NCBI GenBank assembly: GCA_024408235.1
Contig: JAKSVF010000010.1
Coordinates: forward strand, 1-49,607
Length of the DNA: 49,607 bases
From: Bacilli bacterium
GTDB lineage: Bacteria; Bacillota_I; Bacilli_A; RFN20; CAG-826
Reading direction: 5' to 3'
The position numbers were made by a program, and so were the translations under genes. Under the pieces are notes generated by a model that saw only the letters and a list, made by a program, of their open reading frames with translations, ran no database searches and was not told where the DNA came from. Shown in pieces: positions 6,566 to 47,100 of the stretch (within the stretch, counting starts at the first letter, position 1; each line of letters opens with the position of its first letter).

Positions 6566-7750
6566 CTATTCCAGACTGAAGTATTCGTCCAAATGTTTCC
6601 TCTTTATTTCTGTTTCAAGCTTGTTAAACATGTGGACATATTTGACTGGATTAAATCTCTCATTTCCAACGATTAGATAGTTCTTATCTCCGGCAACCAG
6701 TGAAAGTTTTCGGCCAGAAATTGGAGAAGCGGCAGAAATTGTGGATAGGTCTATTTCAACTGAATTTCCCAGTACAAGTCTGTTTTCGTATAGCTTGATT
6801 GAACCACTAGCAACCGGTTTCCTTTTCTTTAAAAGCTCATATTCGAAAACGTCTTCGATCTCATCTTCGAATATCAACTGACCCAACTCTATTTCCTTTT
6901 CCTTAACAACGTTCTTCTGGAAAACATACCAATCAACAAGTTTATGGAATCCATATTTATTATCTTCAAACGTCAGATTCTCTTTATAAGTTAACGATGT
7001 TCCACAACTAGAACATTTTATTTTGTCTCCTTCTGACCTCAGGGTTGAAAGAGATTTGCATTCTGGACAAACATATAAGAGCCTTTCTAAATATTCAGCA
7101 GGAGCCTTGCTTCTGTATTCGATGCCTGAATCTGAGTCAAAAACAACAAGGTCGCGCCTAACTTTTTCTAATAGTTCATCATCGCTCATAACCTTAACTT
7201 CTTGTGCTGAGTATCTGGCTTTTACATCTACAGACATTTTGCCTTTTCTCTTCTTTGAGCCCCATCTTGGACTCACTCCGGTTCCGTTATGGATGTTCAT
7301 CACAACAAGGCTAGAATTTGTCTTTTTTGCTAATTTTAAAACGCTGTCGCTGAATGGATATTGGAATTCAGCGTATGTTCTATTGCCTTCAGGGAACACC
7401 AAGACATTTCCGCCTTCTTTAAGACATTGCATCATCTTAACGACGCATCCGACATCAACTGCGCCTTTTTTCTTTGGGATTAGACCTGTGATACTATGTA
7501 AAAACTTCGATGTAAAACCGTTTGATAAAAGAGTGTCTAAACAGACGGTTTCAACATGCTTATTCGCGGCGCCCATTATAATGATGGCGTCAAGATCTGT
7601 TTGGTGGTTGCTCAAAATAAGTGTAGGCCCATTGAGTCTTAACTTATTAATTTTTATATTGAATGCACAATGTGCAACCAAACGATAAATTGGACGAAAA
7701 AACACCCCAAGAACTTTATGTTTTGTTGTAAATTGTTTTTTCTTAGCCAC
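6566..7750 (-). CDS. 1-acyl-glycerol-3-phosphate acyltransferase-like protein with C-terminal zinc ribbon
   Basis: 394 residues from a GTG at 7750. The GTG is preferred because GAGGAG lies 6 bases upstream and the homologous region begins there. A PlsC-type domain carries NHQTDLD (HX4D, His49-Asp54) and FPEGNRTY (119-126). After it come CPEC (228-231) and CSSC (246-249), a C-X2-C-X14-C-X2-C zinc ribbon, then a beta-rich C-terminal region of about 130 residues that I do not recognise. The catalytic half transfers an acyl chain to a lysophospholipid-type acceptor at the membrane. The start overlaps the end of gltS by 8 bases, so the two genes are translationally coupled. A terminator follows. 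The zinc ribbon and tail are unusual for PlsC. Confidence 0.85.
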   Translation of the reverse strand: MAKKKQFTTKHKVLGVFFRPIYRLVAHCAFNIKINKLRLNGPTLILSNHQTDLDAIIIMGAANKHVETVCLDTLLSNGFTSKFLHSITGLIPKKKGAVDVGCVVKMMQCLKEGGNVLVFPEGNRTYAEFQYPFSDSVLKLAKKTNSSLVVMNIHNGTGVSPRWGSKKRKGKMSVDVKARYSAQEVKVMSDDELLEKVRRDLVVFDSDSGIEYRSKAPAEYLERLLYVCPECKSLSTLRSEGDKIKCSSCGTSLTYKENLTFEDNKYGFHKLVDWYVFQKNVVKEKEIELGQLIFEDEIEDVFEYELLKKRKPVASGSIKLYENRLVLGNSVEIDLSTISAASPISGRKLSLVAGDKNYLIVGNERFNPVKYVHMFNKLETEIKRKHLDEYFSLE

Positions 7751-9167
7751 GCGATGCTCCTCTGTTTGCCATTTTTGGCGATAACACAAGGAATACAGTA
7801 TACCCAATGAACAATACAGTAAATATGCCTAAAGAGATTAGTGCGTTGGTAACGCTCTTGCCAGTGAAGTTCATAAGCAAGAGAAGTGGAGCGACGCATA
7901 GTGTAGCTGGAACTTGAGAGATGATGTAGATGCTTGAAGTAGGTGTTTCGAGGTTTGGATCGATTTCTTTTAATAGAATCATTCCATTGGATGCAGTGCC
8001 TGTTAATGCTCCGAAATTCATAGCGAAAACATGGTGTTCATAACCCTTGAAACATATTTTGGAAATAAGTCTGCAGTAGACATAAGTTCCAATCGTTCCG
8101 AGTACAGAAAGAATAACGATAATCCAGACATAATTTGCTATCTGACCGATGTCGATGGAAGCAACTCCTGCAACAATCATCAAGTCGAATGCAAAACCTG
8201 AAATTCTATCCATTTGATAATTTGAGATGCAGTTCTTTTTTAGTACATTCTTCTTTCTAAGAAGGTTGTAGACTAACTTAATCAACATTGCGAATAAAAC
8301 ACCCCAAAGGAAATTGAATCCCCAAGCGATAGAATTGGTGAAATCGGAGATGGCTCCAAGCCCACACATAAAGGCAAACGCAAGGCCATATCCTAAAGCG
8401 ACTAAACCAACCTGAATCGTGAATTTATCGACTGAGTCAGATTCTTCGATTGTATTCTCTTCATGGATGACTGTGTTATATGTATCGCTCTTGTTTTCTG
8501 TAACAGCGATTTTGCCTCTAGCTTTCTGTATGTTTATGTATGCGACTCCCACTAAAGATGCGACGATGAATCCGATTGAAGCAAGAGATAATCCAAAGCT
8601 TCCGTTCGTGGAGAACATTGAACTATAGTCGGCTGAGAAGTTTACGTCCCATGCAAGTGCGTTGCCCGGCCCCTGTCCAAATGCCAAAGGAAGGATAGCG
8701 CCTGAAGAGTAGAAAATCGTATTAGATGCATTCTGGGTTATATAATAGGCGACAATCGTAACTGCAAGTCCAAGAACAGCCTGGAGCATATAAGTTCCGC
8801 CTGTGAGGAAACCGTTCTGTATACCGGCAAACAATCTTCCCTTTTCTTTTTTCTCGTTGACCTTCAAAGTCATTGCGACGAAACCGATTCCTAAACCGTG
8901 ATAAGTAATGACCTGCATGATATCCTGCTGGATCACAGGTTGTCCAAAGAGTTTAGCTCCGGTTGCATTTAGGATAATCTCGATTATCAAAATGATGACG
9001 CCACCAATTAACGCAGATGGTATCAGCGATTTTTTAAGGAAAGGGATAACACTCCTTAAAATATGGGCAATAAGCATAGATAAAAGGAGTATTCCAACTT
9101 GGAAGAGAACGCTCCAAACGACAAAGTAATTTTCTAAACTAAAATTCCAGTTTGATGCAAAAATCAT
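7743..9167 (-). CDS. Sodium/glutamate symporter family transporter (GltS-like)
   Basis: 474 residues. The start is ATG at 9167 (AGAGGT 8 bases upstream) rather than an upstream in-frame start. The protein is strongly hydrophobic with roughly ten to twelve membrane segments and has the family hallmark AFGQGPGNALAWD in the first half, with a pseudo-symmetric second half (MNFGALTGTASNGM). A hydrophilic loop around residues 220-260 separates the halves. GltS proteins import glutamate with sodium. At 474 residues it is longer than E. coli GltS (about 400), as in the Firmicutes subgroup. It is the first gene of an operon with the acyltransferase. The substrate is inferred from family only. Confidence 0.85.
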   Translation of the reverse strand: MIFASNWNFSLENYFVVWSVLFQVGILLLSMLIAHILRSVIPFLKKSLIPSALIGGVIILIIEIILNATGAKLFGQPVIQQDIMQVITYHGLGIGFVAMTLKVNEKKEKGRLFAGIQNGFLTGGTYMLQAVLGLAVTIVAYYITQNASNTIFYSSGAILPLAFGQGPGNALAWDVNFSADYSSMFSTNGSFGLSLASIGFIVASLVGVAYINIQKARGKIAVTENKSDTYNTVIHEENTIEESDSVDKFTIQVGLVALGYGLAFAFMCGLGAISDFTNSIAWGFNFLWGVLFAMLIKLVYNLLRKKNVLKKNCISNYQMDRISGFAFDLMIVAGVASIDIGQIANYVWIIVILSVLGTIGTYVYCRLISKICFKGYEHHVFAMNFGALTGTASNGMILLKEIDPNLETPTSSIYIISQVPATLCVAPLLLLMNFTGKSVTNALISLGIFTVLFIGYTVFLVLSPKMANRGASRG

Positions 9168-9187
9168 AATTGTGACCTCTGAATTGT

Positions 9188-9215
9188 AGTTTATATCCAC
9201 TTAAATATATGTCAA
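9188..9215 (-). promoter_or_regulatory. gltS promoter
   Basis: Minus strand: consensus TTGACA (9210-9215), 16 bases, TAAACT (9188-9193), followed by a short leader with AGAGGT. Confidence 0.6.
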
Positions 9216-18997: not shown

Positions 18998-19026
18998 TTA
19001 ACACTTGCATACGCATCTTTTATATT
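18998..19026 (+). promoter_or_regulatory. Promoter of the fatty acid kinase / acyltransferase operon
   Basis: TTAACA (18998-19003), 17 bases, TATATT (19021-19026). The leader carries AAGAAGGA before the degV ATG. Confidence 0.55.
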
Positions 19027-19076: not shown

Positions 19077-19955
19077 ATGAGACAAATCGCAATCTTAACA
19101 GACTCTACTTCAGACATCTCAAAAGACTTAAGAGAACAGTATGGTCTTGACTACCTCAAGATGGCAGTCACAGTCGACGGCAAGGAATATCCTGCTTCGC
19201 TAGACTATGAGCAGTACACACCTGCTTGGATCTACGGTGAAATGAGAAAAGGCACTCGTGTCAAAACCGTTCAGGTTACAGTCGAGGAATTCACAAAGAA
19301 ATTCACTGAATATTTAGAAAAGGGCATGGACATCATTTATGTCGCCTGCTCAAGCGCATTATCAGGTTCATACAACACCGGACGCGTCGTTGCTGAGGAA
19401 TTATTGGCAAATTATCCAGATGCTAAAATTGCATGCGTTGATGCTAGAAACTCATCAATGGGCGAAGGCCTCCTTGCAATTGAGGCTTCTGAGCTTGTAA
19501 AAGCAGGAAAGACCCTTGAAGAAGTCGTTGCTACATTAGAAAACGATAGAGATTACTATCACCAGTGGTGCGCCACAGAAACTCTTACATATTTAGCACG
19601 TGCAGGTCGTGTTTCCGCGGGCAAAGCGTTCTTCGGAAACATGTTTGGCATGAAACCAATCCTCATCTCCAACCTCAAAGGTGAAAACTACGCTATAAAG
19701 AAGGTCAGAGGACGTAAGACATCAATCGATGAACTCGCAACAGAACTTGCAAACAACATCGTTGATCCAGAGAATCAGACAATCGCAGTTTTACATGCTG
19801 ATGACGAAGAGGCAGCCAACATGCTTAAAGAAGCAATCTTAGCTAAAGTCAAAGTCAAAGGTATCTATACAGGAATCATCGGACCAATCATCGGTGCATC
19901 AGTTGGCCCAGGCACAGTTGTTACTTACTTCAAAGGTAAGAAACTCGCACTTTAA
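19077..19955 (+). CDS. DegV family fatty-acid-binding protein (FakB-type)
   Basis: 292 residues with the EDD/DegV fold: ILTDSTSDIS at the N-terminus, ACSSALSGSYNTG in the middle (fatty-acid carboxylate site) and TLTYLARAGRVSAGKAFFGN. FakB proteins hold a free fatty acid in a deep pocket and present it to FakA for phosphorylation. The gene immediately precedes fakA, which supports the FakB role over the older generic DegV label. Chain preference cannot be read. Confidence 0.92.
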   Translation: MRQIAILTDSTSDISKDLREQYGLDYLKMAVTVDGKEYPASLDYEQYTPAWIYGEMRKGTRVKTVQVTVEEFTKKFTEYLEKGMDIIYVACSSALSGSYNTGRVVAEELLANYPDAKIACVDARNSSMGEGLLAIEASELVKAGKTLEEVVATLENDRDYYHQWCATETLTYLARAGRVSAGKAFFGNMFGMKPILISNLKGENYAIKKVRGRKTSIDELATELANNIVDPENQTIAVLHADDEEAANMLKEAILAKVKVKGIYTGIIGPIIGASVGPGTVVTYFKGKKLAL

Positions 19956-19983
19956 TTTCATCATCAGATAAGGAGGTTTCCTT

Positions 19984-21642
19984 ATGGAAATCAAAATAAT
20001 GGATGGCGCGCTTTTAAGCGACATGTTCAAGGCTGGATTAGCTAACCTTAGAACACAGGAACAAACCATCAACGAACTCAATGTCTTCCCAGTCCCAGAC
20101 GGCGATACAGGAAGCAACATGAGAATGACAATCGAAAACGGCGTTAAGAGCGCTGTTGAAACAAAGAACATCGGAGAATACGTCACATCATTCGCAAGAG
20201 GCGTTCTTCTCGGTGCTAGAGGTAACTCAGGTGTTATCACATCCCAATTCTTCAAAGGCATCTCATTAGTTCTTAAAGAATTAGAAACGGCCACTATCAG
20301 ACAATTCGCAGATGCGCTTGTCGAAGGATACAAAGTTGCATATAAAGCGGTTGTTACCCCAACCGAAGGCACAATCCTCACAGTTTGTCGTGAAGCTATC
20401 GAGTTAACATATGACAAAGTCACGGACGATATGGACCTTGAATCACTTCTCAAGATGTGGATTATCCAGGCCAAGAAATCTCTTGAAGAGACTCCAGAAA
20501 AACTCGCGGTCTTAAAAGAGGCTGGAGTCGTTGACTCGGGCGGTGCTGGATTAGTAACTATCTTTGAAGGCTTCTTAAAGTTCTTGGGCGGAGAGATTCT
20601 TGATACCGAAATTGAGTCCACAGGTCACGGTACATCTCAGGTTAAACCAGTCAGCAAAGAAATCTTTAACGCTGATTCAGTTATGACATTTGGCTACTGC
20701 ACAGAATTCATTCTTCAGTTGCTCAATAGCAAATGCGACCCAGCTGAATTCGACATTGATGAATTCGTTAAATTCCTCGAATCAATCGGTGGTAACTCAA
20801 TCGTTGCCTTAAAGGATGAAGATATCGTCAAGATCCACGTTCATACCTTTGAGCCTTGGAGAGTGTTCCAAAAAGCTCAGCAGTATGGTGAATTAGTCAC
20901 TCTTAAAGCTGAGAATATGGACATTCAGAACGCTCAGACCGAAGCTGAAAAGAAAGCAAAGAAACAAAAAGAGCATAAAGCAATCGCCTATGTCGCGGTT
21001 TGCCAGGGCGAAGGCATTATCAACCTTTACAAAGACTTAGGATGCGATGTCGTCGTTAATGGTGGGCAGACAATGAACACTTCTACAGAAGAATTCGTTG
21101 AAGCTTTTAAAACATTGAACGCAGACAACATCATCGTCTTCCCAAACAACAAGAACATCGTCATGGCTGCTGAACAGGCTCGCGATATTTATAAAGACGC
21201 CAATATCCACGTCATCAAAACCGGCTCAGTTGCTCAAGGCTACTTCGCATTCTCAATGATGGATGTTGATGAAACCGACGTCGATGCACAGCTTGAAAAC
21301 ATTATGGCTGGCATTGAAAACGTAACAACAGTTTCGACAACACGTTCAATCAGGGATACATCCGTCAACGGAGTCGTCTGCAAAGAAAACGAGCCAATCT
21401 CAATTGTTAATCACACACTTGTTGCCTCAGACTCATCTGCTGTCAACTCAACAATGAAGGCTATCGCAACGGTTGAAGACATTGAAGAAAAAGAAGTTAT
21501 AGTCATCTTCAAAGGCCAGGGAGTCAGTGAAGAAGTGGCACAAGAACTTCAGGATGCAATCGGTGCTAAGTACCCATGCGCTGAAGTTGGAGTCATCGAC
21601 GGACAACAAGACGTCTATGACTTTATCCTTGGTATTTGCTAG
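19984..21642 (+). CDS. fakA: Fatty acid kinase catalytic subunit FakA (DAK1/DegV-associated, YloV family)
   Basis: 552 residues. The N-terminal DhaL-like kinase domain has the nucleotide/metal motif VFPVPDGDTGSNM (about 37-49) and LGARGNSGVITSQF. A linker domain and a DegV-like C-terminal domain follow with the charged KKAKKQKEHKA joint near residue 323. FakA uses ATP to turn a FakB-bound fatty acid into an acyl-phosphate at the membrane. AAGGAGG precedes the ATG. It is placed between FakB and PlsX, its usual biochemical partners. Confidence 0.95.
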   Translation: MEIKIMDGALLSDMFKAGLANLRTQEQTINELNVFPVPDGDTGSNMRMTIENGVKSAVETKNIGEYVTSFARGVLLGARGNSGVITSQFFKGISLVLKELETATIRQFADALVEGYKVAYKAVVTPTEGTILTVCREAIELTYDKVTDDMDLESLLKMWIIQAKKSLEETPEKLAVLKEAGVVDSGGAGLVTIFEGFLKFLGGEILDTEIESTGHGTSQVKPVSKEIFNADSVMTFGYCTEFILQLLNSKCDPAEFDIDEFVKFLESIGGNSIVALKDEDIVKIHVHTFEPWRVFQKAQQYGELVTLKAENMDIQNAQTEAEKKAKKQKEHKAIAYVAVCQGEGIINLYKDLGCDVVVNGGQTMNTSTEEFVEAFKTLNADNIIVFPNNKNIVMAAEQARDIYKDANIHVIKTGSVAQGYFAFSMMDVDETDVDAQLENIMAGIENVTTVSTTRSIRDTSVNGVVCKENEPISIVNHTLVASDSSAVNSTMKAIATVEDIEEKEVIVIFKGQGVSEEVAQELQDAIGAKYPCAEVGVIDGQQDVYDFILGIC

Positions 21643-21651
21643 ACTATATAC

Positions 21652-22569
21652 ATGAAAAAAATAGTCATCGATACATTAGGTGGAGATTTAAGTCTCCAAG
21701 AAATACTAGAAGGCGTAGTTCTTGTTCTTGAAAAAGGAGGGGAATATAAACCTGTTCTAGTCGGTCCTAAGAAAGCTATCGATGACTTTTTTAGTGCCCG
21801 AAATTTAGAAGTCGAGGTTATCGACGCTGAAACTGAAGTTACAAACCACACGAATCCAATGACCATGTTATATGAACAGGATTCATCGGCTTTGGTTAAG
21901 TCATATAAATATTTAAAGGATAATGAGGACGCTAAAGGCCTAATTACTTGTTCTGCAACCGGTTGTGTCCTTGTTGCGTCAATATTCCATCTCGGTCTTA
22001 GAGATGGCCTCAAATTCCCTGTTTTAGGCGCAATCCTAAAACATAGAGACGGAAAAGAATTCCTTCTTGCCGACTGCGGGGCAAACATCGATGTTAAGGA
22101 TGTTGACTTAGATAAGTTTGCAAGACTTGGATCTGAATTTATCGCAAGTTATTTAGGCGTAGATAAGCCGCGAGTTGGTATTGTTTCTAACGGAAAAGAA
22201 GATGGAAAAGGCAATGCTTTAATCAAGTCTGCATCCAAGATACTTAGAGAAGATGAAACAATCAATTTTATCGGTAACATTGAGGCTTGTGACTGTTTTA
22301 ACAACCTTGCCGATGTGCTAGTTTGTGACGGCATGATTGGAAATGTTGTCATCAAAGTGGCAGAGAGTGTTGCAACCATCGTCGCTTCATGGGGCGAATG
22401 CAAAGAAATCCAAGATGGAGTCGCAGAGAAATTCGATTATACAAACATTGCTGGCTCTGTTTTGATTGGCGCCAAGAAAGTTGTAGTTAAAGCCCACGGC
22501 GCTGCAAATAGAAAAACGGTTGTCGGCTGCTACAATCAAATCACTAAGCTTTTAGACGGAGGCTTTTAA
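21652..22569 (+). CDS. plsX: Phosphate acyltransferase PlsX
   Basis: 305 residues. It starts MKKIVIDTLGGD, matching the PlsX opening (usually DxMGGD), and has VGIVSNGKEDGKGN, FIGNIEACD and VLVCDGMIGNVVIKVAE. PlsX interconverts acyl-phosphate and acyl-ACP. Here it connects FakA's product to the ACPs encoded downstream. It is somewhat short (family about 320-345). No good ribosome binding site is visible before the ATG 10 bases after fakA, so it may depend on coupling to fakA translation. Confidence 0.88.
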   Translation: MKKIVIDTLGGDLSLQEILEGVVLVLEKGGEYKPVLVGPKKAIDDFFSARNLEVEVIDAETEVTNHTNPMTMLYEQDSSALVKSYKYLKDNEDAKGLITCSATGCVLVASIFHLGLRDGLKFPVLGAILKHRDGKEFLLADCGANIDVKDVDLDKFARLGSEFIASYLGVDKPRVGIVSNGKEDGKGNALIKSASKILREDETINFIGNIEACDCFNNLADVLVCDGMIGNVVIKVAESVATIVASWGECKEIQDGVAEKFDYTNIAGSVLIGAKKVVVKAHGAANRKTVVGCYNQITKLLDGGF

Positions 22570-23148
22570 GTGAACGCTAAAGCCTACATATATTCAAATG
22601 ACAATCTCTATTCTGGAAACATAGTTTTGCCAGAGAATGTTATAAAGCATATTGATGATTCTCATCATGTTGCCTCAAAGAATAAAATCTCAACATCGAT
22701 GTACTCGTATTTATTTGAATTGCTCGGTGGAGAGATTACTTACTCAGTCAAGAATAAACCGATGCATGATAGCAATGAGATTTCGGTTTCTCATAGCAAT
22801 AAATTTCATGGATTCGCTATATCTGATAAATCCATTGGTTTCGATATTGAAGAATTGATTGCGGAAGATAAGGTCAATCAGTTGGCCAATATGATCCTTA
22901 CTAAAAAAGAAAAAGAAGAATTTGCCATCTCAAAGGATAAACAGACGTATCTAACAATCCGCTGGTGTGTAAAAGAAGCCTACGGAAAACTCATTGGTTA
23001 CGGATTAACCAAAGAAGCGTTTGACTGCGATGATATACCTTATAAATGGCTGAAGATTAATAACACAATCATTGTTGTTGTTTTCAAAAACATTAATCAA
23101 GATGTAGAATTCTTTCTTAATGGAGAACCATTAAGTGGAGAATATTAA
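22570..23148 (+). CDS. 4'-phosphopantetheinyl transferase, Sfp type
   Basis: 192 residues starting at GTG 22570, immediately after the plsX stop, with GGAGG 7 bases upstream inside plsX. Motifs are SVSHS (72-76), GFDIEE (Asp92 and Glu94 bind magnesium) and RWCVKEAYGKL (Trp132, Lys135, Glu136). It moves the phosphopantetheine arm from CoA to a carrier-protein serine. The two carrier domains encoded downstream (Ser591 of the ligase and Ser40 of the small ACP) are obvious targets. It is shorter than Sfp (224). Its end overlaps the ligase gene by 14 bases. Confidence 0.88.
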   Translation: MNAKAYIYSNDNLYSGNIVLPENVIKHIDDSHHVASKNKISTSMYSYLFELLGGEITYSVKNKPMHDSNEISVSHSNKFHGFAISDKSIGFDIEELIAEDKVNQLANMILTKKEKEEFAISKDKQTYLTIRWCVKEAYGKLIGYGLTKEAFDCDDIPYKWLKINNTIIVVVFKNINQDVEFFLNGEPLSGEY

Positions 23149-25033
23149 GAGATTAGTAAAAACTAGATACGAGGCATTGATAAATTCGTCTAAAGATTTT
23201 GAGGCGATTTTCAATGTATCTTTTTCTGATGAGTCTAAGGTTCTCTCTGAAAAGAATGATGGTTTTAGAATCTTCAAAACTTCTTATGGCGATTCTAAAA
23301 GAAGAATTCTGCAAATAGCGTATTCTCTAAATAAGATTTACCCAGATTTGAAAGATGAGTTTATCGGTATTTCGATTGATTCATCTCAGGAATGGATTGA
23401 CGCATATTGGGGCATACTTGCATCAGGTAATAAACCTTATCTAATCAACCATAGGTATCCAACTGAATTAACGAATAAAATCCTTGCTAGATTAGGTGCT
23501 AGATACTCTCTTAGCTATAAACATTCTTTTGGCTATGTGACAGAAGAGATAGATATTAGGAATCTAGCTGAAGAAGTGCCAGGTGATTACGTCTTCGCAT
23601 GGGCAAATGAGATAGCCATTTCAACATCAGCAACCACACTTAAAGAAAAGATTGTTTTCTATAAAGGTCAGGAACTCGCTGACAATGTTCTAAATGTAAA
23701 TTATATTCTTAAACTCAACAAGAGAGCTAAGAAGCATTACAAAGGTTCTCTTAAACTGCTTGTATTCTTGCCTCTTTATCATATATTTGGCTTAGTTGCT
23801 GTAATGACATGGTTCTCGCTGTTCTCTAGAACGTTTGTCTTCTTGAGAGATTATTCCGCCAAGACAATTCTTAAAACCGTTAAAAAACATGGGGTTACTC
23901 ATATCTTTGCTGTGCCTCTTTTCTGGCACACTTTGGATAAGGAACTTAGAAAAACAGTGGCTAAAATGGGCAAACGTACTGAGAAAACATTCAATAATGC
24001 GATAGGAATGACTTCTAAGCTCCAGAAAAATGGAAAGCACATTGATTACTCAAGACGTCTTTTGAAGAAAGTTACAAACCAACTATTTGGACCGTCTGTC
24101 TATTTCTGTATCACAGGTGGATCATACATTAAAGATGAGACTCTAAGACTTATTAATGCTCTTGGTTATCCGCTGCTCAATGGCTATGGAATGACCGAAG
24201 TGAGTATCACATCTGTTGTTTTGTCAAACAAATTCGCTGATCGTATTTCGGGATCGATTGGTAAACCGCTCCCAAGTGTTCAGTACTCTATTGCCGATGA
24301 TGGCGAATTACTCATTAAAGGAGAATCTATCTCCCACAAAATAATAATTAATGGAGAAATCCAAGAGCCTTCCGAATGGTTCATGACAAATGACATCGCA
24401 AGAATTGACGAAGATGGAAATTACTACATCCTTGGTAGGAAAGATGATTTATACATTGGCGAAAACGGAGAGAACATTTCTCCTGATGATATAGAGAAGA
24501 ATCTGAATATAAATGCACAGAGATACTGTATATTAAACTTGAACAATAAATTGACATTAATAGTTCAGGCATCCAAGTACGCTTCAAATGATGCCTTGTC
24601 TTCGTTGCACAAGTCAGTTTTAGAGGAAATAAGCAAACTTGATCAGTCTAATAGACCTTCAGATATCCTCTACACAAGAGATGATATTGCAAATGCAAAT
24701 TCGATAAAGGTTTCTAGGCAGGGGCTTTTGAGATTAATTGAAAACGGTCAAGTCTCATTCATCGATATCAATTCCGTAGATAGTTCCGCTGTTTTTGAAG
24801 TAAATCAGGCGATTTTAGAGAAGGTTACCTCAATTGTTGAGGAATTCACATCTGTAAGACCAATCGAGGCTAAATCGCACTTTATGGTTGATTTAGGCTG
24901 TTCTAGCCTTGACTATTTCACACTTGTATCAAGACTCAATCTAGAATTCGGCATCAGTATGCCTTACTTAGATGATTATGATAGTTACACCGTTCAGGGC
25001 ATGGCCAAGATAGTGGAGGAATTATTAGTATGA
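23135..25033 (+). CDS. Acyl-acyl carrier protein ligase (ANL superfamily) with fused C-terminal ACP domain
   Basis: 632 residues from GTG 23135, with GGAG 9 bases upstream. The adenylation domain has ISTSATTLKEK (P-loop), PLYHIFG, NGYGMTE, NDIARIDEDGNYYILGRKDD and a late catalytic lysine in NSIKVSRQG. The last ~75 residues are a carrier domain with VDLGCSSLDYF, Ser591 being the expected pantetheine site. The enzyme should adenylate a carboxylic acid, probably a fatty acid, and load it on its own ACP. The start overlaps the phosphopantetheinyl transferase by 14 bases, and the end overlaps the acyltransferase by 4. No condensation or reductase domain is present, so it is not a polyketide or peptide synthetase. 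The chain specificity is inferred from context. Confidence 0.88.
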   Translation: MENIKRLVKTRYEALINSSKDFEAIFNVSFSDESKVLSEKNDGFRIFKTSYGDSKRRILQIAYSLNKIYPDLKDEFIGISIDSSQEWIDAYWGILASGNKPYLINHRYPTELTNKILARLGARYSLSYKHSFGYVTEEIDIRNLAEEVPGDYVFAWANEIAISTSATTLKEKIVFYKGQELADNVLNVNYILKLNKRAKKHYKGSLKLLVFLPLYHIFGLVAVMTWFSLFSRTFVFLRDYSAKTILKTVKKHGVTHIFAVPLFWHTLDKELRKTVAKMGKRTEKTFNNAIGMTSKLQKNGKHIDYSRRLLKKVTNQLFGPSVYFCITGGSYIKDETLRLINALGYPLLNGYGMTEVSITSVVLSNKFADRISGSIGKPLPSVQYSIADDGELLIKGESISHKIIINGEIQEPSEWFMTNDIARIDEDGNYYILGRKDDLYIGENGENISPDDIEKNLNINAQRYCILNLNNKLTLIVQASKYASNDALSSLHKSVLEEISKLDQSNRPSDILYTRDDIANANSIKVSRQGLLRLIENGQVSFIDINSVDSSAVFEVNQAILEKVTSIVEEFTSVRPIEAKSHFMVDLGCSSLDYFTLVSRLNLEFGISMPYLDDYDSYTVQGMAKIVEELLV

Positions 25034-26313
25034 TTTCCTGGTTACTATATTGGTTTATGAAGGTTACGGCGTGGCCTTTATATTGGATTTACATCAAACG
25101 CCGCACTTATTATGAGGATAAGAAAGACACGAACACGCACGTAAAGGGCCCTGCAATTGTCGTTCTCAATCACAGAAGCCTTAAAGATTTGATGCTTGTG
25201 ACATTCATGTTCCCGTTCCGTAAGGTGTATTGTCAGATGTCTGAAGCCGTTTATACGCGCAACAAATTCCAGGGCTGGATTATGAAAGTCGTTGGAGGAG
25301 TGCGCGTTGATAGAAATAACAACGAGTTATCCTTTATGGATAAATCAGAGGAACTTCTTGAAAAAGGCAAGATTCTTGTCGTCTTCCCTGAAGCTAAGAT
25401 ATCAACAGATGGTCAAATAAAGAAGTTTGCGCCTTCTTATGTTGTTCTAGCACAAAAGACCGGCGTTCCAATTATTCCTGTTTACCACGATGGTAACTAT
25501 GGCCTATTCAAAAGGGTGCATACGACTATTGGCAAAAAGATATTCATCTATGATCACTGCGAAGATGTTTATCCGACAAAACAACAGATTGACTCATTGA
25601 ATAAGATGGTTAGACGAAAAGTGATGTCCATGGGTATGCAACAGCAGCATCTTCTAAACACTGATCGCTACTCAAAGATTTTTTCTCTTAGATATTTCTT
25701 GAAGGATATCGGGCGATTAACTGTTTATCAGTTTAATTTATATTTCCGTTACAAGGTTTATAACCTTGGCGAAAAGAAAAATAAGCTTAAACCAAAAGGT
25801 GGATTACTCATTGTTGCCAACCATACGAGATTTGTTGATCCATTGGCCATCATAATGGCTTTCTGGAGGAGAAGAGTGTACTGCTTAACTGGTGAAGTTG
25901 TCTTTGCTGAAGGCCATCCAGTTAGAAATTGGTTACTTAAGGAGCTCGGCTGTGTAAGGATAAACCGCTATGAGAATGATCCAGACGCAATAAATGAATG
26001 CATAAATATTCTCGACGGAGGAGGCGTTCTTCTCGTGTTCCCTAACGGTAGAATTCACCGAGATGGCAGTTTAGACGATTACAAATCAGGAGCGGCTCTA
26101 TTAGCAAGCAGGACAGGTGTTCCAATGCTACCTATTTATATTAAAAACCAGCCAAAGAAATGGAATAAGGTGAAGATGTATTTAGGCGAATCCAAAACCG
26201 TAAAAGAGCTTTGCAACAAAGAATATCCATCAGTTGAAGATTTGAATGCGGTAATGGATAATATGTTCGCTCAAATTTCAGAATTAAAACGAGAGGCCGA
26301 GGAAGAAAAATAA
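25030..26313 (+). CDS. Tandem PlsC-domain acyltransferase
   Basis: 427 residues containing two complete acyltransferase domains in a row. The first has NHRSLKD (His48-Asp53), GGVRVDR and FPEAKIS (119-125). The second has NHTRFVD (His265-Asp270), GCVRINR and FPNGRIH (337-343). An N-terminal hydrophobic segment (about 3-21) suits a membrane-bound enzyme. Each HX4D domain can transfer an acyl chain to a glycerophosphate-type acceptor, so one protein might fill both positions of a lipid. The order and the donor (acyl-ACP from the flanking genes) are inferred. It overlaps the ligase gene by 4 bases and abuts the ACP gene. Confidence 0.9.
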   Translation: MISWLLYWFMKVTAWPLYWIYIKRRTYYEDKKDTNTHVKGPAIVVLNHRSLKDLMLVTFMFPFRKVYCQMSEAVYTRNKFQGWIMKVVGGVRVDRNNNELSFMDKSEELLEKGKILVVFPEAKISTDGQIKKFAPSYVVLAQKTGVPIIPVYHDGNYGLFKRVHTTIGKKIFIYDHCEDVYPTKQQIDSLNKMVRRKVMSMGMQQQHLLNTDRYSKIFSLRYFLKDIGRLTVYQFNLYFRYKVYNLGEKKNKLKPKGGLLIVANHTRFVDPLAIIMAFWRRRVYCLTGEVVFAEGHPVRNWLLKELGCVRINRYENDPDAINECINILDGGGVLLVFPNGRIHRDGSLDDYKSGAALLASRTGVPMLPIYIKNQPKKWNKVKMYLGESKTVKELCNKEYPSVEDLNAVMDNMFAQISELKREAEEEK

Positions 26314-26556
26314 ATGGACGAGACGATTAAAAAGCTATACGAAATTCTTAAACAAATTGAACCTGATACAACAGTGAAATATGAAGAGCTAAAGCCTGAG
26401 ACAAACATCAAAAACGATCTAGGTTTGAACTCGATTGGATTCTTGTATTTGGTAATTGGAGTTGAGAAAGAATTCTGTATTACTATGAGAAATGCAGACC
26501 TCGATGAACTCCAAACATTAGGGCAAGTTGTTCAATATATTGAGGAAAATGCCTAA
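26314..26556 (+). CDS. Acyl carrier protein
   Basis: 80 residues, acidic and helical, with NDLGLNSIGFLYL around the carrier serine Ser40 (Asn instead of the usual Asp before it). It follows the tandem acyltransferase with no gap and ends the operon. The replacement of the DSL triad by NSI suggests a specialised rather than the general fatty-acid-synthase ACP. It is probably loaded by the upstream ligase or PlsX and modified by the upstream phosphopantetheinyl transferase. Confidence 0.88.
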   Translation: MDETIKKLYEILKQIEPDTTVKYEELKPETNIKNDLGLNSIGFLYLVIGVEKEFCITMRNADLDELQTLGQVVQYIEENA

Positions 26557-26572
26557 TTAACAATATAAATTT

Positions 26573-26598
26573 AAGTCTCCATGTGAGACTTTTATTTT
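26573..26598 (+). terminator. Terminator of the lipid operon
   Basis: AAGTCTC-CATGT-GAGACTT followed by TTATTTTTT. Confidence 0.9.
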
Positions 26599-29791: not shown

Positions 29792-29819
29792 TTGAAATCA
29801 TCAAAACTGGTGTTAATAC
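29792..29819 (+). promoter_or_regulatory. Promoter of the surface lipoprotein operon
   Basis: TTGAAA (29792-29797), 16 bases, TAATAC (29814-29819) preceded by TGT, an extended -10 arrangement. AAAGGA lies before the ATG at 29855. Confidence 0.6.
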
Positions 29820-29854
29820 TGACGCATATATTTTTTCAGAGAAAGGAAAAGACT

Positions 29855-32818
29855 ATGAAAAATAAGAAATTAGTTTTCGTCCTTGCAGCTACAATGCTTC
29901 TTGCAGCTTGCGGACCAAAACCAGCTACTTCTGAGTCATCAGGACCAGAGGCATCAGCAAATACTTCTCAGGCAACTGGTGATAAGTCATCAGCACACAA
30001 ACACTCCTATGGAGAATGGAAAGAAACAAAGCCTGCAACCTGCACTGAGAAGGGTGAAAAAGAGAGAACCTGCGAATGCGGAGAAAAGCAGACACAGGAT
30101 ATCCCAATGACCGATCACAAATACGGTGAATGGCATGAAACAAAAGCTCCTACTTGCAGCGATGATGGCGAGAAGGAAAGAGAGTGCTCAGTCTGCCATA
30201 CAAAGGAGACTGCACCAGTCGTAACAGACGGCCACGCTTGGGGCGATGAGACAACAGTTGCTGCTCCAGCAGACGGATATGTCTCTTATAGAACGGCAAA
30301 ATGCTCTAAGGACAACAACCTTAAGATTGCTCTCAAGGGTACTGACGGCACACTTGCAGAAGGTTCTAAATTAAAAACAGACAAAGCATACCCTTCAGCA
30401 ATGAAGCTTGGCTCAAACGGCCAGTCAATCTCATACAAGCTCCAGTACAACAGAAATGGAACAGGTAAAGTCTATTTCTATGGCGCTATGGACTACTTCA
30501 ATGCATCAGATGATAACGGTGCTAGAGGCTTCTATTCAGGCAAGAACAACAACAACGAATCGCCTAACTTCGAGCTCAAGGTCAATGACACTGTCGTTGA
30601 TATCTCAGACAAGAAGGATCTCACATACAGAGATATGTTCAAGAAGGGCGAGTCAGCAGAACACGCTCAGTACACAAACAACGAATTAATCGAAGTCGGT
30701 GCAATTGAACTCAAGGCTGGAGACAACGAAATCGTCTTCAAGAGATTAGAGTCATACAACATCCTCATCGAAGATATCGTCATCGTCCTTGATCAGTACA
30801 GCGATGAAGTCGAATTAGAGCCACAGGCTGATACATTCTACACATTCACAGCTGACTCACACGTCTTGCAGTGGATGGCATCATTCTCCGATGCAAACTG
30901 GGTTGATCTTCCAGAAACAGCACAGTTCAACGTCACAGCACCAGACGGCACAAAATTAGAAGACAAGGCAACCGCATCTCTTGTCTATGCAGAAGGCATC
31001 AACATGATGGTTTCCGCCATGATCGAAGAAGGCTACGAAATCGAATCAATCAAAGTTGACGGAGTTGCTGCTCAGGTTGATGGTGGACCTGGATACGGCG
31101 GTATCTTTGTTCCAATCACAGCAGGAAATCACACTGTTGACATCAAGACAGCTAAGTTACCTGACCCAGATACAAACCTCAAGTTCACAGCAGATGAAGG
31201 AATTGACTTCGTTGATTTGTTCATCTTTAACGAAGAGAACGGAAACTTCTATTTCGATTATGATGACGTCAACTATGAAGCTGGATGGGTTTTCCACACA
31301 GGTGATACATTATCAATTGATAACATCTACACAAACGAAGGATACGAAGTCGACAAAGTCATCTTTGACGGCGTTGAATTAGTTGCAGAAGAAACAGAAT
31401 TCTTCGGACATGTCTCTAAATCATGGTCTGCAGATATCACAGCGGCAGGTGAGCACACACTCTCAGTCACATCTAAGAAAGCAGTTGATACAACATACAC
31501 ATTCGATATCGATGAGCACGTCGCTATGTGGATGGCAAACATTGAAGATGATAACTATGTTCCAGTTGCGAGTGCATACCACAACATGGAAGGTCTTTCG
31601 GGAATGTTAGAAGATGTTTTAACAGCATCATTCGTATATTCTGAAGGTCTCTATCTCGACTTGCAGATGGCAATCGAGGACGGTTACGTTATTGACTCAG
31701 TAAAAATTGACGGTGTTGAGGCTACAGTTGAAGGTGAATTCGGCATGTATGGCGTCTACACCGAAGTCAGCGCAAACGGCGCTCACTCAGTTGTCGTAAC
31801 AACAAAAGAAGCACCAAAACCAAATTCATCATTAGTTCTCGATCTCGATGCTAATGTTAACGAAGAAGATACATACATCTGGCTCGACCACTTCAATTTC
31901 TTCGCATCAGGCGAGGGATATACCGCAAAGTGGTTCTATGAAGAAGGCGAAACAATCTACATCGATCCAGTTATTGCTTCAGGCTATGAAATCGCAACAA
32001 TCACAGTTGATGGCGTTGCAGCTACATACGACGATGATATGTCTGCATATGCTGCGGTTTTAGCTGAAGCTGGTGCACACACAGTCAAGATCACAACAAA
32101 GAAATCAGTTGACACAACAGTCACTGTCACAACAGATAGCCATGTTGCAGCATACTCAGGTGCTGTCGAAGGCGATTCATCATTTGATTTCGTCGCCAAG
32201 AACTTTGTAAACCCAGTCACGGGCGAAAATGTTGAACTCAAAGATAGCGCAGCAGTCGTCTTTGAAGAAGGTATGACATTGATGATTTCAGCGATGCCAG
32301 AAGAAGGCTACGAAATCGCCACAATCACAGTCAACGGCGAAGAAGTCGAAGTCGAAGGCGATTCAGAAGCAGCAGGCGCATACATCATCCTTGAAGAATC
32401 AGGCGCATACGCAATCAACATCACAACAAGAAAAGCAAAAGACACATTCGTTGCAGTCACATCCGATGACCACGTCATTTCATGGGCTGCAATGGTTGAA
32501 ACTGACGCTGACGCAGATATTGCTTGCTACAACTGCGTTAACCCAGCAACAGGCGAGGATATGCCAAACAAGGCAACTGCAAGTATTGTTTATGCAGATG
32601 ACATCACAATCATGGTCACAGGCGGTATTGAAGAAGGCTATGTCATCGATACAATCACAGTCAATGGCGAAGAACTTGCATTCATGTTCGAAGATGGTGT
32701 CTTCCAGGTATTCGTCGAACTCATCGAAAAAGGTTCTTATACAATCGACATCACAACAAAGAAAGCAAGCCCATTCATTGAAGGTGAAACAGGTAACGGC
32801 GAAGTCGAAGATTGGTAA
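29855..32818 (+). CDS. Large repeat-containing surface lipoprotein
   Basis: 987 residues from ATG 29855 (AAAGGA upstream; the longer in-frame start adds a non-signal sequence). It has a lipoprotein signal with LLAAC (Cys19) and a Ser/Pro-rich linker. Next come two Cys-X-Cys or CXXC repeats (about 48-128) of the form W-x-E-T-x-x-P-x-C, and a beta-rich carbohydrate-binding-like region (about 130-320). Six tandem domains of about 95-110 residues follow to the end (starts near 325, 436, 543, 655, 751 and 860). It is acidic, anchored outside the cell, and has no visible catalytic motif, so adhesion or glycan binding is the likely role. It forms an operon with the next gene. Confidence 0.82.
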   Translation: MKNKKLVFVLAATMLLAACGPKPATSESSGPEASANTSQATGDKSSAHKHSYGEWKETKPATCTEKGEKERTCECGEKQTQDIPMTDHKYGEWHETKAPTCSDDGEKERECSVCHTKETAPVVTDGHAWGDETTVAAPADGYVSYRTAKCSKDNNLKIALKGTDGTLAEGSKLKTDKAYPSAMKLGSNGQSISYKLQYNRNGTGKVYFYGAMDYFNASDDNGARGFYSGKNNNNESPNFELKVNDTVVDISDKKDLTYRDMFKKGESAEHAQYTNNELIEVGAIELKAGDNEIVFKRLESYNILIEDIVIVLDQYSDEVELEPQADTFYTFTADSHVLQWMASFSDANWVDLPETAQFNVTAPDGTKLEDKATASLVYAEGINMMVSAMIEEGYEIESIKVDGVAAQVDGGPGYGGIFVPITAGNHTVDIKTAKLPDPDTNLKFTADEGIDFVDLFIFNEENGNFYFDYDDVNYEAGWVFHTGDTLSIDNIYTNEGYEVDKVIFDGVELVAEETEFFGHVSKSWSADITAAGEHTLSVTSKKAVDTTYTFDIDEHVAMWMANIEDDNYVPVASAYHNMEGLSGMLEDVLTASFVYSEGLYLDLQMAIEDGYVIDSVKIDGVEATVEGEFGMYGVYTEVSANGAHSVVVTTKEAPKPNSSLVLDLDANVNEEDTYIWLDHFNFFASGEGYTAKWFYEEGETIYIDPVIASGYEIATITVDGVAATYDDDMSAYAAVLAEAGAHTVKITTKKSVDTTVTVTTDSHVAAYSGAVEGDSSFDFVAKNFVNPVTGENVELKDSAAVVFEEGMTLMISAMPEEGYEIATITVNGEEVEVEGDSEAAGAYIILEESGAYAINITTRKAKDTFVAVTSDDHVISWAAMVETDADADIACYNCVNPATGEDMPNKATASIVYADDITIMVTGGIEEGYVIDTITVNGEELAFMFEDGVFQVFVELIEKGSYTIDITTKKASPFIEGETGNGEVEDW
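30829..32800 (+). repeat. Six tandem coding repeats of about 300-330 bp
   Basis: Each unit of the lipoprotein contains a Thr/Val-rich strand, a segment like ATASLVYAEGI, then EEGYEIxxIxVDG and ends in HTVDITTKK-like residues. The last two units are closest to each other (EEGYEIATITVNGEEVE and EEGYVIDTITVNGEEL), suggesting recent duplication. Units two and four diverge most in the first half. Confidence 0.85.
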
Positions 32819-42144: not shown

Positions 42145-43557
42145 ATGATTGGTAACTTTTTTGAATTAGTGTCCGACAAGTTTTTCCATCCATTGTCGAA
42201 CAAAAACAAAGTTCTAAACTACAGACTTCTCGCCATCATCAATGAGCAGATGGGTGGAGAACTCGGTCAATGGCCACGAGAGAACGTTCTCGATTGGATC
42301 ATAGACTACATCTCCAATTGCCCAATCGATTTCTATGATGATGATACCGACGAAGACGAGGGCAAGGATTATAGAAGAATCGCATCCAACAAGCTCCGTT
42401 ATTTCGTCAACTGCGGTTGGCTCGTAGATGAGAACGACACACGTACCTTAAAGGTCACGTATCAGATGGACTCTGCTGCCATTGCACTCTTGAAGGCAAT
42501 GCAGGATGTTGTTGATGAAGATTCTTCGCCTAGCGAATACACAAGCTACGTGTATAACATCTACAACTCTTTATATAACTTCAAGTACGACCACGCTCTT
42601 GAAATGGTTGAGTCAATGTACTCCCACTCAAGAGATCTCACTGCAAGATTAAGAGGTCTTAACGTTTCTATAAAGAAATATCTCCAGAAGTTGGTGAACA
42701 ATCCTAACCTCTCACCGAAAGAGATTCTCGACCAGTTCCTTATCGAATATCAGGATAAGGTTATTTTGAAAGCGTTCAACAACCTCCGTATCAAAGATAA
42801 CCCTGCAAAATACCAGAACTACATCATCAACAAGATTGATAACCTCATGTTAGAGGATAACCTCAACAAGATGATTGATGATTACATCGAAAAGAAGAGA
42901 GATGGTGCAAAGACCCCATCTAACATTGCTGAGGCTAAAGAATTCTTTGTCTCTAGACTTCTCTACATCGATGAACAGTTCAAATACATCGAAGACAACA
43001 TCGAACTCTTGTATAAGAGAAATACAGCTTACGCAGAAGCGGCTAACTCAAGAATCCGTTTCTTGCTCAACGAAGAAGTGGATATCGAAGGCTCAATCGT
43101 CTCAACGTTGCGCAACATTGCAAACAGCGGTGGAGATGCGGTGGATGGATATGGAGCGTTTGACATCTTTGAGTTAGGAAGACTTACAGAGAATTCCTTG
43201 TACAACCAGAGAGCAAGGGCTAGAAAACCTGCCTCAATCATCGATGACACTTCAAACATCGTCGTTGATGAAGAAGTGCTCAAGGAAGCAAGATCCAGAC
43301 TCAAAAACGAAGCTTCATTCTCACACCGTTCCATCAGTGCTTACATCCTCAATCAGTTGGGAACTAGAGACAAGATGGAAGCAAAGGATATGAACATCAA
43401 GGCATTCGACGACCTTGTGAAAATGTTCTTAGCCTGTTTATACAGCCAATCAAGAACCGTCGCTTATAAGATTGAATTCACCGGTGATGTATTCACCTGG
43501 GACAGCGGTACTAGACCAATAAAGATGTCTAACTTCATCGCAGAAAGGAAGAAATAA
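42145..43557 (+). CDS. jetA: Condensin kleisin-type subunit, JetA/MksF-like (DUF5716 type)
   Basis: 470 residues, largely helical: N-terminal winged-helix-like region (ERNVLDWIIDYI-type helices, about 20-110), then long helices with acidic and basic heptads, and a C-terminal part with SAYILNQLG and VFTWDSGTRPIKM. Length and position fit the first subunit of type III Wadjet (JetA), the counterpart of MukF/MksF. Its stop overlaps the next start (TAATG). The family call rests mainly on operon structure with the following DUF4194-like and SMC-like genes. Confidence 0.8.
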   Translation: MIGNFFELVSDKFFHPLSNKNKVLNYRLLAIINEQMGGELGQWPRENVLDWIIDYISNCPIDFYDDDTDEDEGKDYRRIASNKLRYFVNCGWLVDENDTRTLKVTYQMDSAAIALLKAMQDVVDEDSSPSEYTSYVYNIYNSLYNFKYDHALEMVESMYSHSRDLTARLRGLNVSIKKYLQKLVNNPNLSPKEILDQFLIEYQDKVILKAFNNLRIKDNPAKYQNYIINKIDNLMLEDNLNKMIDDYIEKKRDGAKTPSNIAEAKEFFVSRLLYIDEQFKYIEDNIELLYKRNTAYAEAANSRIRFLLNEEVDIEGSIVSTLRNIANSGGDAVDGYGAFDIFELGRLTENSLYNQRARARKPASIIDDTSNIVVDEEVLKEARSRLKNEASFSHRSISAYILNQLGTRDKMEAKDMNIKAFDDLVKMFLACLYSQSRTVAYKIEFTGDVFTWDSGTRPIKMSNFIAERKK

Positions 43558-44195
43558 TGGCAAACATTACCAAAACTGCAGCATGTGAAAGATTCTCCGC
43601 AATCTACATGACTCTCAACGAAACAAAGAAAAACATATTCGCGCGTTTGATCAGCAAGCTTTTAACCGAGAATTTCATCTATGGTCAGATTGCTGATGAC
43701 CGCAACGACTACTATGCAATCCTAGAGAACAAAGAAGCCATTCAGGACTTCCTCCTCATGGCGGGCTTTGAACTCATGCACAAAGACACTCAGAAGATCT
43801 TCTATCTATACAGTGAAACCGAGAGAAATAGAGTGAAGCTTAAAAAGCTTGAGACAGTTTTATTACTCATCTTAAGACTTGAGTATTACAAGAAGTCCAA
43901 AGCGATCGACGCTAACACAAACATCTCTGTTGACTCATACGATGTCATCTCTGAACTCCAGAATACAGGCATCATGAAAGATAAGCTTGTCAAAACCGAA
44001 CTTATCGATGCACTCAAGACATTGAAGAGAAACAAACTCATCAATTTTGACGTCACACAGGGCGAAATCAGCAACATCATTGAAATCTATCCTACAGTTG
44101 CATTAATTGTCACCACAGACGACATTACGGCCCTTAACGCAAGAATTGAATCATACACATTAAAGGAGAACGACGATGAAACTGACGAAGATTAA
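43557..44195 (+). CDS. jetB: Condensin subunit, JetB/MksE-like (DUF4194 type)
   Basis: 212 residues, helical with a winged-helix pattern: RFSAIYMTLNETKKNIFARLI at the start, RLKKLETVLLLILRLEYY in the middle, and an acidic tail. JetB/MksE dimers bind the kleisin and load it onto the ATPase. It lies between jetA (1-base overlap) and jetC (20-base overlap), with AAAGGAAG before its ATG. Tight overlaps suggest that the three subunits are made in fixed ratio. Confidence 0.8.
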   Translation: MANITKTAACERFSAIYMTLNETKKNIFARLISKLLTENFIYGQIADDRNDYYAILENKEAIQDFLLMAGFELMHKDTQKIFYLYSETERNRVKLKKLETVLLLILRLEYYKKSKAIDANTNISVDSYDVISELQNTGIMKDKLVKTELIDALKTLKRNKLINFDVTQGEISNIIEIYPTVALIVTTDDITALNARIESYTLKENDDETDED

Positions 44196-47100
44196 GCTCG
44201 TTAACTGGCATCTCTTTAGAAACGAGACCATCAACGTAAACGGAAACTTCCTCATCACGGGCGAAAACGGCTGTGGTAAATCAACCTTAATGGACGCTGT
44301 TTACTATGTTTTATCAGGCGGCGATGAATCATGCTTCAACAACGCTGCAAACGCAGAGGCTAGACGTAGTGTCACAACATACGTCCGCGGACGTGTTGGT
44401 AACGAAGGAGAAGGCAAGGAATTCTTAAGAAACGATAATGACATCATCTCCCACCTCGCACTCGAATTTAACGATGGTGTCACAGGCAAGAACAACGTTC
44501 TCGGCTGCGTTATTGAAATCGTCGACTTCGGCAAGCCTAGAGTGAAGTTCTATACAATCCAGAATCACTCAATCACCGATGACGATTTATTAGAAGGCAC
44601 AAACATCAGAGACTTCAAGGCTCTTGAAGTTTACTTCAAATCAAAAGAATACGATTGGGCAAGACTTGAAGATTCAATCTATAGAAGAAAGAAGATGATC
44701 TCATCCGACGTCTTAAAGCTTGAATCAGGCGACAGATATTCAGAACTCCTCAGAAAAGCTATGGCGTTCAGACCAATCTATGAAGTCTCATCATTCGTCA
44801 ATGACTTCCTTCTCAAAGAGAACAACATTGAAATCACAACACTTATGGATGAAATCCGTCAGTACCGTGAAATCAACAACGAACTCTTAAAAGAAGAAGA
44901 AAAGGCCGCTCTCCTCGAAACATTTGTTCCAAAAGGCGAGAAGTACCAGAACAACATCAACTCAATCTCATATTACCGTGCTCTCAACGAAATGGTTGAG
45001 GTCAAGAAAGCCGAGAAGGATATTGCTAAACTAGACCTCGAAATCTCCAAGATCGATGACAAGATCGCATCATCAGATTCGGAAGTCGCATCTGCAGATG
45101 AGAAATTAAGATATTTACAGGCCCAGAAAAAAGCCCTTGAAGACGACGAAACATATAACGCCTTAAAGGACAAGAAAGAGAGACTTGAATATCTCATCAG
45201 AGAAGAGACAAAAGCACATGATGTCATCTCTAACATCAACCTCTTCATCGAAAGGGAAAACCAGATCATCGCTCAGTATGGCATGAAGTATAACTTCCAG
45301 GCTGATATTGAAAGAGGAAATTACGCTTTATATAAAGATCATCTCCGTGCATATCAGCAGGAAATCGAAAGATATAAAGAGAACAACAACCAGGTCATCG
45401 CTCAGAAACAGAACCTCCTTGAAGAAAAGAGAAGAGAGATCAACGCTAAGAAGACAGAACTCGCAACTCTTGATAGAGGACAGAACACATATTCTCCACA
45501 GGTAATTCGCCTCCTTTCCGCGGTAAGAAACGGACTTAGAGACAAATATGGCAAGGAAATCGAAGTCAAACCTTTATGCGAATACCTCGATATCAACGAC
45601 ATCAGATGGACAAACGCAATCGAAGGTTATCTCAACACACAGAGATTCGACTTAGTTGTCGATCCTAAGTACTTCGATGATGCAGCTGAAATCTACGAAG
45701 ACATCAAACTGGAACAGAAGATCTATGGCATCGGTATTATCCATTCTAAGAATGAGATCCCAGAAGCAGAGGAAGGAACGCTCTATTCCAAAATCGATGT
45801 CACGAACCCATACGCAGCATATGCGGCATGGATGATTCTCGGACGCGTCCACTGCGCAGAAGACATCCGCGATTTAAAGAACTATGACCTCGCTATCACA
45901 AAGACATGCATGGTCTATAGAAATAGAACAGTCAGAAATATCAACCCAGAAGTCTACAAGTTCCCATATTTAGGTAACGATTCCTTCTCGGCAAGAAGAG
46001 AAATCCTCGCTGACCAGATCGCATACCTCACAAGCTTCAAAGACGAGATGGAAGAGCAGATTGACAACGTCAGACGTTCCAACCAGTTCTTAGGAACATC
46101 TCACGTCGCAAAACTCTTAGAGTACGATAACGTTTGGGAAAGAAGTGGTAGAATCGCAAAAGACATCCTCGACCTCGAAGACGATATTGCCCTTGCTGAA
46201 AAGGAGCAGGACTTATTCGCTCTCCAGGATCAGATCAAGTCGGTCTCAAAACAGATTCAGGAAGTAAACACCCTTCTCCACGCTAAGAAAGACGAGAACA
46301 AGAAACTCGTCATGGAGAAAGGCTCTAAAGCAACTCATAGAGACTACGCCCTTCAGGCAAAAGACAATCACGAAGTTGCATATAAGACCATCACAAAACC
46401 GTTTGATGAGGTTGACTTCGAGGAATTCACGAAGAGATATCAGAACAAGAACGGATACGATATCGACGCTATCTTGAATGATTTCAAGAAGGCATCAAGC
46501 TTCAACAACAACGTCCGTATCGAAGTAGAGAAAGGCATGAGAGAATACGTCAACAAGTACTCGCTCTCGTTCTCCCCAACAATCGAGAACATCAACGACT
46601 TCATCATCGAATACTACAAGATCAAGAACAGAGACCTTGTTGAGTATAAAGAGAAAGCGGAACTCGCATTCCAGAGATGCAAAGAAGGCTTTGAAGCTGA
46701 CTTCATCTCCAAACTTCACGGTAGAATCGATGAGGCCAAGGAAGTCATTAAGAGCATCAACAAGACTCTTAAGGCTCACCCATTCGGATACGAAGACGAA
46801 GTCTATGAGTTCACATGCGGAGCTTCAGATGATGACGAGATGAAGGATTACTATAGAATCATCACCTCCGGCAAAGACATGGAGGCAAAAGACCTCTTCA
46901 CAGAAGTTCTTGATGAAAGAGAACTCGCTATCATGCGTAAACTCTTCGATAGAATCGTCGATGAAATGGACGGCTCAGCCTCAGAAAAGAAACTCGATAA
47001 GTACCTTGATTACCGTAACTACATGAAGTACGACATCAAGATCACTGATAGAAACAACAACGTCCAGTTATTCTCTAAGACAAATAGAGGCGTATCTGGC

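Follow-up and report, generated by a model that had tools for sequence, protein, structure and literature searches.

We suggest, with a probability of roughly 0.55, that seven genes of Bacilli bacterium (RFN20; CAG-826; GCA_024408235.1, genome G000) form a parallel acyl-activation and acyl-transfer module that handles exogenous fatty acids in a bacterium unable to make its own. The genes lie on contig JAKSVF010000010.1, of which positions 1-49,607 were analyzed and are referred to as the window. Seven ORFs were found at 19077-26556 on the plus strand, in the order claimed by the first-pass annotation, together with candidate flanking signals:

18998-19026, plus strand: promoter-like site TTAACA-17-TATATT (from a consensus scan only, in which the site count is not above that of shuffles)
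19077-19955, plus strand: DegV / FakB-like fatty-acid-binding protein, 292 aa (PF02645, 223 bits; FakB1/DegV relatives in the PDB)
19984-21642, plus strand: FakA, fatty acid kinase catalytic subunit, 552 aa (PF13684, PF02734, PF21645)
21652-22569, plus strand: PlsX paralogue, acyl-ACP:phosphate acyltransferase, 305 aa (PF02504, 204 bits)
22570-23148, plus strand: Sfp-type 4'-phosphopantetheinyl transferase (PPTase), 192 aa, GTG start (PF01648, 48 bits)
23135-25033, plus strand: AMP-forming ligase with C-terminal acyl carrier protein (ACP), 632 aa, GTG start (PF00501, 102 bits; PF00550, 20.1 bits)
25030-26313, plus strand: tandem PlsC with two HX4D acyltransferase domains, 427 aa (PF01553, twice)
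26314-26556, plus strand: free ACP, 80 aa (PF00550, 34 bits)
26573-26591, plus strand: intrinsic-terminator-like hairpin, then TTATTTTTTG, 3' of the free ACP

With the exception of the ligase's C-terminal ACP, which falls slightly under the Pfam cut-off (20.1 versus 20.8 bits), the ORFs score well above family cut-offs (Pfam/NCBIfam); PlsX passes the Pfam cut-off and lies below that of TIGR00182 (205.9 versus 243.4). Intergenic spacing ranges from -14 to +28 bases. Most junctions had been described as overlapping: two do overlap (by 14 and 4 bases), but two abut and two are gaps (28 and 9 bases). The single terminator claimed earlier corresponds to a terminator-like hairpin, followed by a run of T, downstream of the ACP gene; like the promoter-like site, it is a consensus match only. 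Compared with the nearest relative (79-90% identity), the first four genes have a dN/dS of 0.06-0.07; for the other three, dN is 0.10-0.14 and dS is saturated. Judging from these rates, purifying selection appears to act on all operon genes. The low dN/dS and the recurrence of the gene order in other genera and families argue that the operon is not a chance arrangement, and the possibility that this order is unique to the genome was rejected.

Elsewhere in the window, positions 42145-47382 hold Wadjet-type defence genes: JetA (PF18982, 257 bits) at 42145-43557, then a 212-aa ORF and an SMC-like protein with an SbcC Walker B motif, at 44176-47382. A Fic/DOC-family protein with an N-terminal helix-turn-helix follows directly (47588-48478). 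At 29792-32818, a lipoprotein-like ORF of 1008 aa, which contains repeated segments and has no Pfam match, adjoins a protein of 1308 aa bearing BspA-type leucine-rich repeats.

Fatty acid synthesis has apparently been lost in this gut-type bacterium. The first-pass annotation had remarked that no fatty acid synthase gene is present, which holds genome-wide for ketoacyl synthase: none was found in the genome (1.66 Mb, 72 contigs, 90.5% complete), so that a FASII set elsewhere in it can be rejected as regards this enzyme. Ketoacyl synthase is likewise absent in 36 of the 37 genomes of the genus, the lone exception being a 42-residue match, and is present at full length in 7 of 279 genomes of the order (matches in ten others are short pieces). 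The ligase-ACP fusion occurs in 149 genomes of the order (E ≤ 1e-40), none of them among these seven (hypergeometric test, P-value 0.004, with shared ancestry ignored). Absence of ketoacyl synthase from the genome, the genus, and most of the order thus backs the earlier proposal of a scavenging and lipid-assembly module, here in an organism lacking FASII.

Core copies of FakA and PlsX are found on contig C10, in the order asp23-fakA-recG-plsX-rnc-ftsY-ffh, where the names other than FakA and PlsX are those we take the genes to bear from our own reading of the sequences. In Bacillus subtilis, fabD, fabG, and acpP are located between plsX and rnc; all three are absent from this interval on contig C10. 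PlsY, for which the first-pass annotation had proposed a search, is encoded on contig C16. A second ligase-ACP, cut by a contig end, lies on contig C60 near rpsT-, holA-, and comEC-like genes. The description of the module as self-contained is not supported: the genome keeps a second FakA, PlsX, PlsY, ACP, and ligase-ACP, as well as a DegV and a hydrolase at a second locus. A housekeeping PlsC is also present. The housekeeping FakA, PlsX, PlsY, and ACP and the second ligase-ACP make the operon a parallel system, and the idea that it is the organism's sole lipid pathway was rejected, since core copies exist.

In the kinase branch, the two subunits differ in how much of the described active sites they retain. 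FakA is known to contain a Mg-binding Asp pair and a Cys-His-His catalytic triad (PMC9136124). By motif alignment to those residues, the operon FakA keeps C239, H285, and H287 and the Mg-binding D39 and D41; pair and triad are kept in almost all copies compared. The fatty acid carboxylate network of FakB1 consists of Thr62-Ser95-Ser171-His270 (PMC8892158), and the operon DegV does not have it complete. Positions mapped by motif place Ser275 at the His270 position and Ala176 at the Ser171 position, with the other two motifs retaining their Thr and Ser. R178 is the equivalent of FakB Arg173, which is needed for the kinase reaction. This Arg is present in 24 of 24 operon-linked DegVs; the His270 equivalent is found in none of the 24, versus 27 of 38 unlinked DegVs. 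The FakB Arg205 position was left out of the comparison, as its loop aligns poorly. Another DegV of the genome (contig C7, L166 8710-9594) has Lys for Arg173 and Ser at the His270 position and adjoins a 1185-aa protein; a similar DegV is found in G010. On contig C4 (L164 2251-5089), a polysaccharide deacetylase and an alpha/beta hydrolase accompany a divergently transcribed DegV with Asn at the His270 position, and these genes resemble additional components of the lipid module.

The co-occurrence survey recommended by the first-pass annotation revealed related operons in three families of the same order. Their commonest form is FakA-PlsX-ligase·ACP-PlsC·PlsC-ACP (G196, G198, G094, G110, G041 (family f2), and G074 (family f3), the last with PPTase and MFS genes upstream). 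Within the genus, the full set with PPTase (type A) is found in G000, G001, G010, and G011, and in G004 a zinc-ribbon gene replaces PPTase. Type B operons have the order FakA-PlsX-PlsC·PlsC-ACP, without the ligase (G015, G016, and G017, the last cut by a contig end). Type D operons (G021, whose contig begins at the ligase, G025, G030, G033, and G034) comprise FakA, ligase·ACP, and a single PlsC, then DegV where the contig reaches; they keep the ligase and have neither PlsX nor free ACP. Two separate PlsC genes occur in G248, G257, G115, and G161, and such pairs adjoin ligase-ACP in some relatives. An MFS_2-like transporter gene is placed between ligase·ACP and PlsC in G161, G201, and G215 and within the same cluster in G167 and G231; in some relatives' operons MFS_2 transporters stand beside FakA. 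Most related operons also come with an alpha/beta hydrolase and a DegV of a second kind. In G000 (C4) and G001 (C10), this pair occupies a separate locus together with a polysaccharide deacetylase.

That ligase·ACP and PlsC·PlsC act together is indicated most strongly by G141, in which ligase, ACP, and two PlsC domains form one protein of 1100 residues. Conserved adjacency and this natural fusion uphold the view of the pair as a functional unit. As annotated at first pass, the tandem PlsC has two HX4D cores (H48/D53 and H265/D270), which are invariant in 18 aligned relatives; in four type A copies, the second core has FPNG in place of FPEG. Its structure model (mean pLDDT 82) best matches the fold of T. 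maritima PlsC (5kym), and the PlsC half matches PRK08633/Aas models. The window also encodes a further PlsC-type acyltransferase at 6566-7807 on the minus strand, after which comes a zinc-ribbon-like segment (a weak match); it lies beside a 485-aa ORF without a Pfam match (7743-9200).

Both carriers of the operon depart from the usual DSL motif. The free ACP has DLGLNSI, where Asn39 stands at the position that Asp usually occupies ahead of Ser40, and among free operon ACPs the residue preceding the phosphopantetheine Ser is almost always Asn, Thr, Met, or Ser. In the ACP fused to the ligase, Ser replaces this Asp and the phosphopantetheine Ser is kept; alignment confirmed the latter as Ser591, invariant in 29 aligned relatives. 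The core ACP of G000 (contig C23) carries the canonical DLGLDSL. The PPTase retains its motifs (D92/E94 and K135/E136/K140). It had been regarded as a dedicated transferase; however, it is the only PPTase match found in the genome, so it probably primes every carrier. The Sfp-type enzyme is also the sole PF01648 match in G001, G010, and G011 (completeness ∼90% for G000 and G001, 64% and 70% for G010 and G011); in most of the genus, a short AcpS-sized PPTase is located elsewhere in the genome. Most simply, the operon enzyme would have taken the place of AcpS and would prime the core ACP also. Loss of the DSL Asp as a consequence of this replacement was considered and rejected, because G015 shows the same change with an AcpS-sized enzyme. 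In G013, a relative with a genome of about 1.6 Mb, an Sfp-type PPTase adjoins a 2406-aa NRPS-like protein with carrier and adenylation-like matches (contig C50, L065, 8161-15381).

These observations can be assembled into a scheme whose every enzymatic step, substrates, and product are predicted from sequence. The FakB-like DegV would bring a fatty acid, or a close variant of one, to FakA for conversion to acyl-phosphate, from which the PlsX paralogue would transfer the chain to the free ACP. Independently, the ligase would adenylate an acid and load it onto its own C-terminal ACP. The two-headed PlsC could then take chains from both carriers and place one or two of them onto a lysolipid or glycerol-phosphate, with the Sfp-type enzyme arming all carriers. 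Several observations stand against this reading: the carboxylate His is missing from all operon-linked DegVs, the ligase P-loop departs from the SGTTG that the core paralogue keeps, the operon of G000 itself has no MFS or hydrolase gene (the hydrolase being on contig C4), and type B operons lack the ligase altogether.

The module might instead be devoted to a single specialized membrane lipid, of the glyco- or aminolipid kind, rather than to bulk phospholipid; we regard this as possible, if doubtful. The altered FakB site, ACP, and ligase would then select an unusual acid or separate the pathway from housekeeping, and PlsC-PlsC would acylate a sugar- or amino-containing acceptor. Since the core FakA, PlsX, and PlsY could alone explain phospholipid synthesis, and housekeeping PlsC and ACP exist as well, the operon may indeed serve a special lipid. 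The changed carboxylate site of all operon-linked DegVs points the same way, as do an MGDG-synthase-like glycosyltransferase after one operon form (G025, G178, and G182, with a family-2 glycosyltransferase also following in G025) and the recurrence of polysaccharide deacetylase genes beside the module's hydrolase (G000 contig C4, G013, and G115). However, glycosyltransferases accompany one subtype only, and none is linked to the G000 operon.

A second alternative concerns the ligase, which might act on a non-fatty substrate or provide a structural carrier, leaving acyl supply solely to Fak-PlsX-ACP. Its P-loop (164-172) reads TSATTLKEK and departs from SGTTGxxK (the core ligase of G001 has SSGTTGDAK), its nearest sequence matches are, weakly, MenE-type and general acyl-CoA ligases, and type B operons manage without it. 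Taken together, the altered DegV site, ACP Asp, and ligase ATP loop suggest that the operon substrates may not be ordinary. Yet five adenylation motifs are kept (A4 H216, A5 E355, A7 D420, A8 R435, and A10 K525): the catalytic Lys K525 does not vary across an alignment with identities as low as 27%, nor do the A7 Asp, the A5 Glu, and the ACP Ser, and the A8 Arg is almost invariant. Subtype D, moreover, retains the ligase though it has no PlsX or free ACP. We consider this alternative unlikely. In a fold search, the ligase structure model (mean pLDDT 86) matches MenE and various other adenylating enzymes; A-PCP didomains and an acyl-ACP synthetase (8jyl) also appear within its top 50 matches.

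It is also quite improbable that the operon simply repeats the ordinary FakAB-PlsX-PlsC route to bulk phosphatidic acid as a redundant second copy. Every part but the tandem PlsC does have a housekeeping counterpart in the genome. Nevertheless, the same sites are changed in operon copies across genera (DegV His and ACP Asp), operon ligases form one clade (77% at base) separate from core ligases (99%), and such wide joint retention is hardly expected of a mere duplicate. Within the ligase tree, the G004 sequence groups with copies of other genera and another family, apart from that of G000, which suggests transfer or old paralogy as judged from sequence. Finally, we think it highly improbable that the ligase domain needs no ATP and, by means of its altered P-loop, takes FakA acyl-phosphate to load its own ACP, replacing PlsX, which would explain the subtype with FakA, ligase-ACP, and PlsC but no PlsX or free ACP and, if true, would constitute a new route from acyl-phosphate to carrier.

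In uncultured gut Bacilli of the order RF39, loss of fatty acid synthesis has been described as striking, and the Firmicutes mechanism for incorporating exogenous fatty acids has been suggested as the way in which they cope (PMC6784871). The operon family would represent a second, more elaborate answer to FASII loss, recurring in different families of an order that nearly lacks FASII, and probably an undescribed way of membrane building for fatty-acid-dependent microbes. It yields concrete hypotheses on the acids and lipids that such organisms need, which bears on culturing, and the ligase-carrier-acyltransferase assembly is an unusual object for biochemistry. No description of a ligase-ACP with tandem PlsC was found in the open-access literature searched, a scope that leaves most subscription journals outside. 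The parts are known; the combination is new.

Among known systems, the NRPS and aryl-ACP didomains (EntE-EntB fusion and McyG A-PCP) share the order of an adenylation domain followed by a carrier, and the ligase fold matches 3rg2 and 4r0m. The operon, however, has no condensation or other NRPS domain, and its partners are lipid enzymes. In E. faecalis, the accessory ACP AcpB is cotranscribed with plsX (PMC6509188). The operon similarly encodes a second ACP together with plsX; in contrast, FASII is present in E. faecalis, where AcpB takes part in its regulation by exogenous fatty acids. We know of no ligase-ACP or tandem PlsC in E. faecalis. With the FakAB-PlsX-PlsY/PlsC pathway of Staphylococcus and Enterococcus, the operon shares a FakA that retains every catalytic residue, a FakB-type DegV, PlsX, PlsC, and ACP. 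It differs in that a ligase-ACP and an Sfp-type PPTase join these genes in one operon, the DegV has no carboxylate histidine, PlsC takes a tandem form, and PlsY lies outside the operon.

In E. coli, Aas forms acyl-ACP, with which it acylates lysolipids imported by LplT (PMC11416262). LplT is an MFS lysolipid flippase, and LplT-Aas homologues also occur in fused form. Like this system, the operon combines a putative acyl-ACP ligase with a PlsC-type acyltransferase and would hand the acyl chain over on ACP, and in several relatives an MFS transporter adjoins it. Aas, however, carries a single PlsC domain and draws on the free ACP of the cell, whereas the operon has a ligase-fused ACP and a double PlsC and adds a fatty acid kinase and PlsX. 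Ligase and PlsC form one polypeptide in Aas but are encoded by separate genes in G000, being fused only in G141, and the relatives' transporter belongs to the MFS_2 family, with none in the G000 operon. Overall, by this analogy, the operon might best be read as a Gram-positive counterpart of LplT-Aas lysolipid acylation that is fed by a fatty acid kinase.
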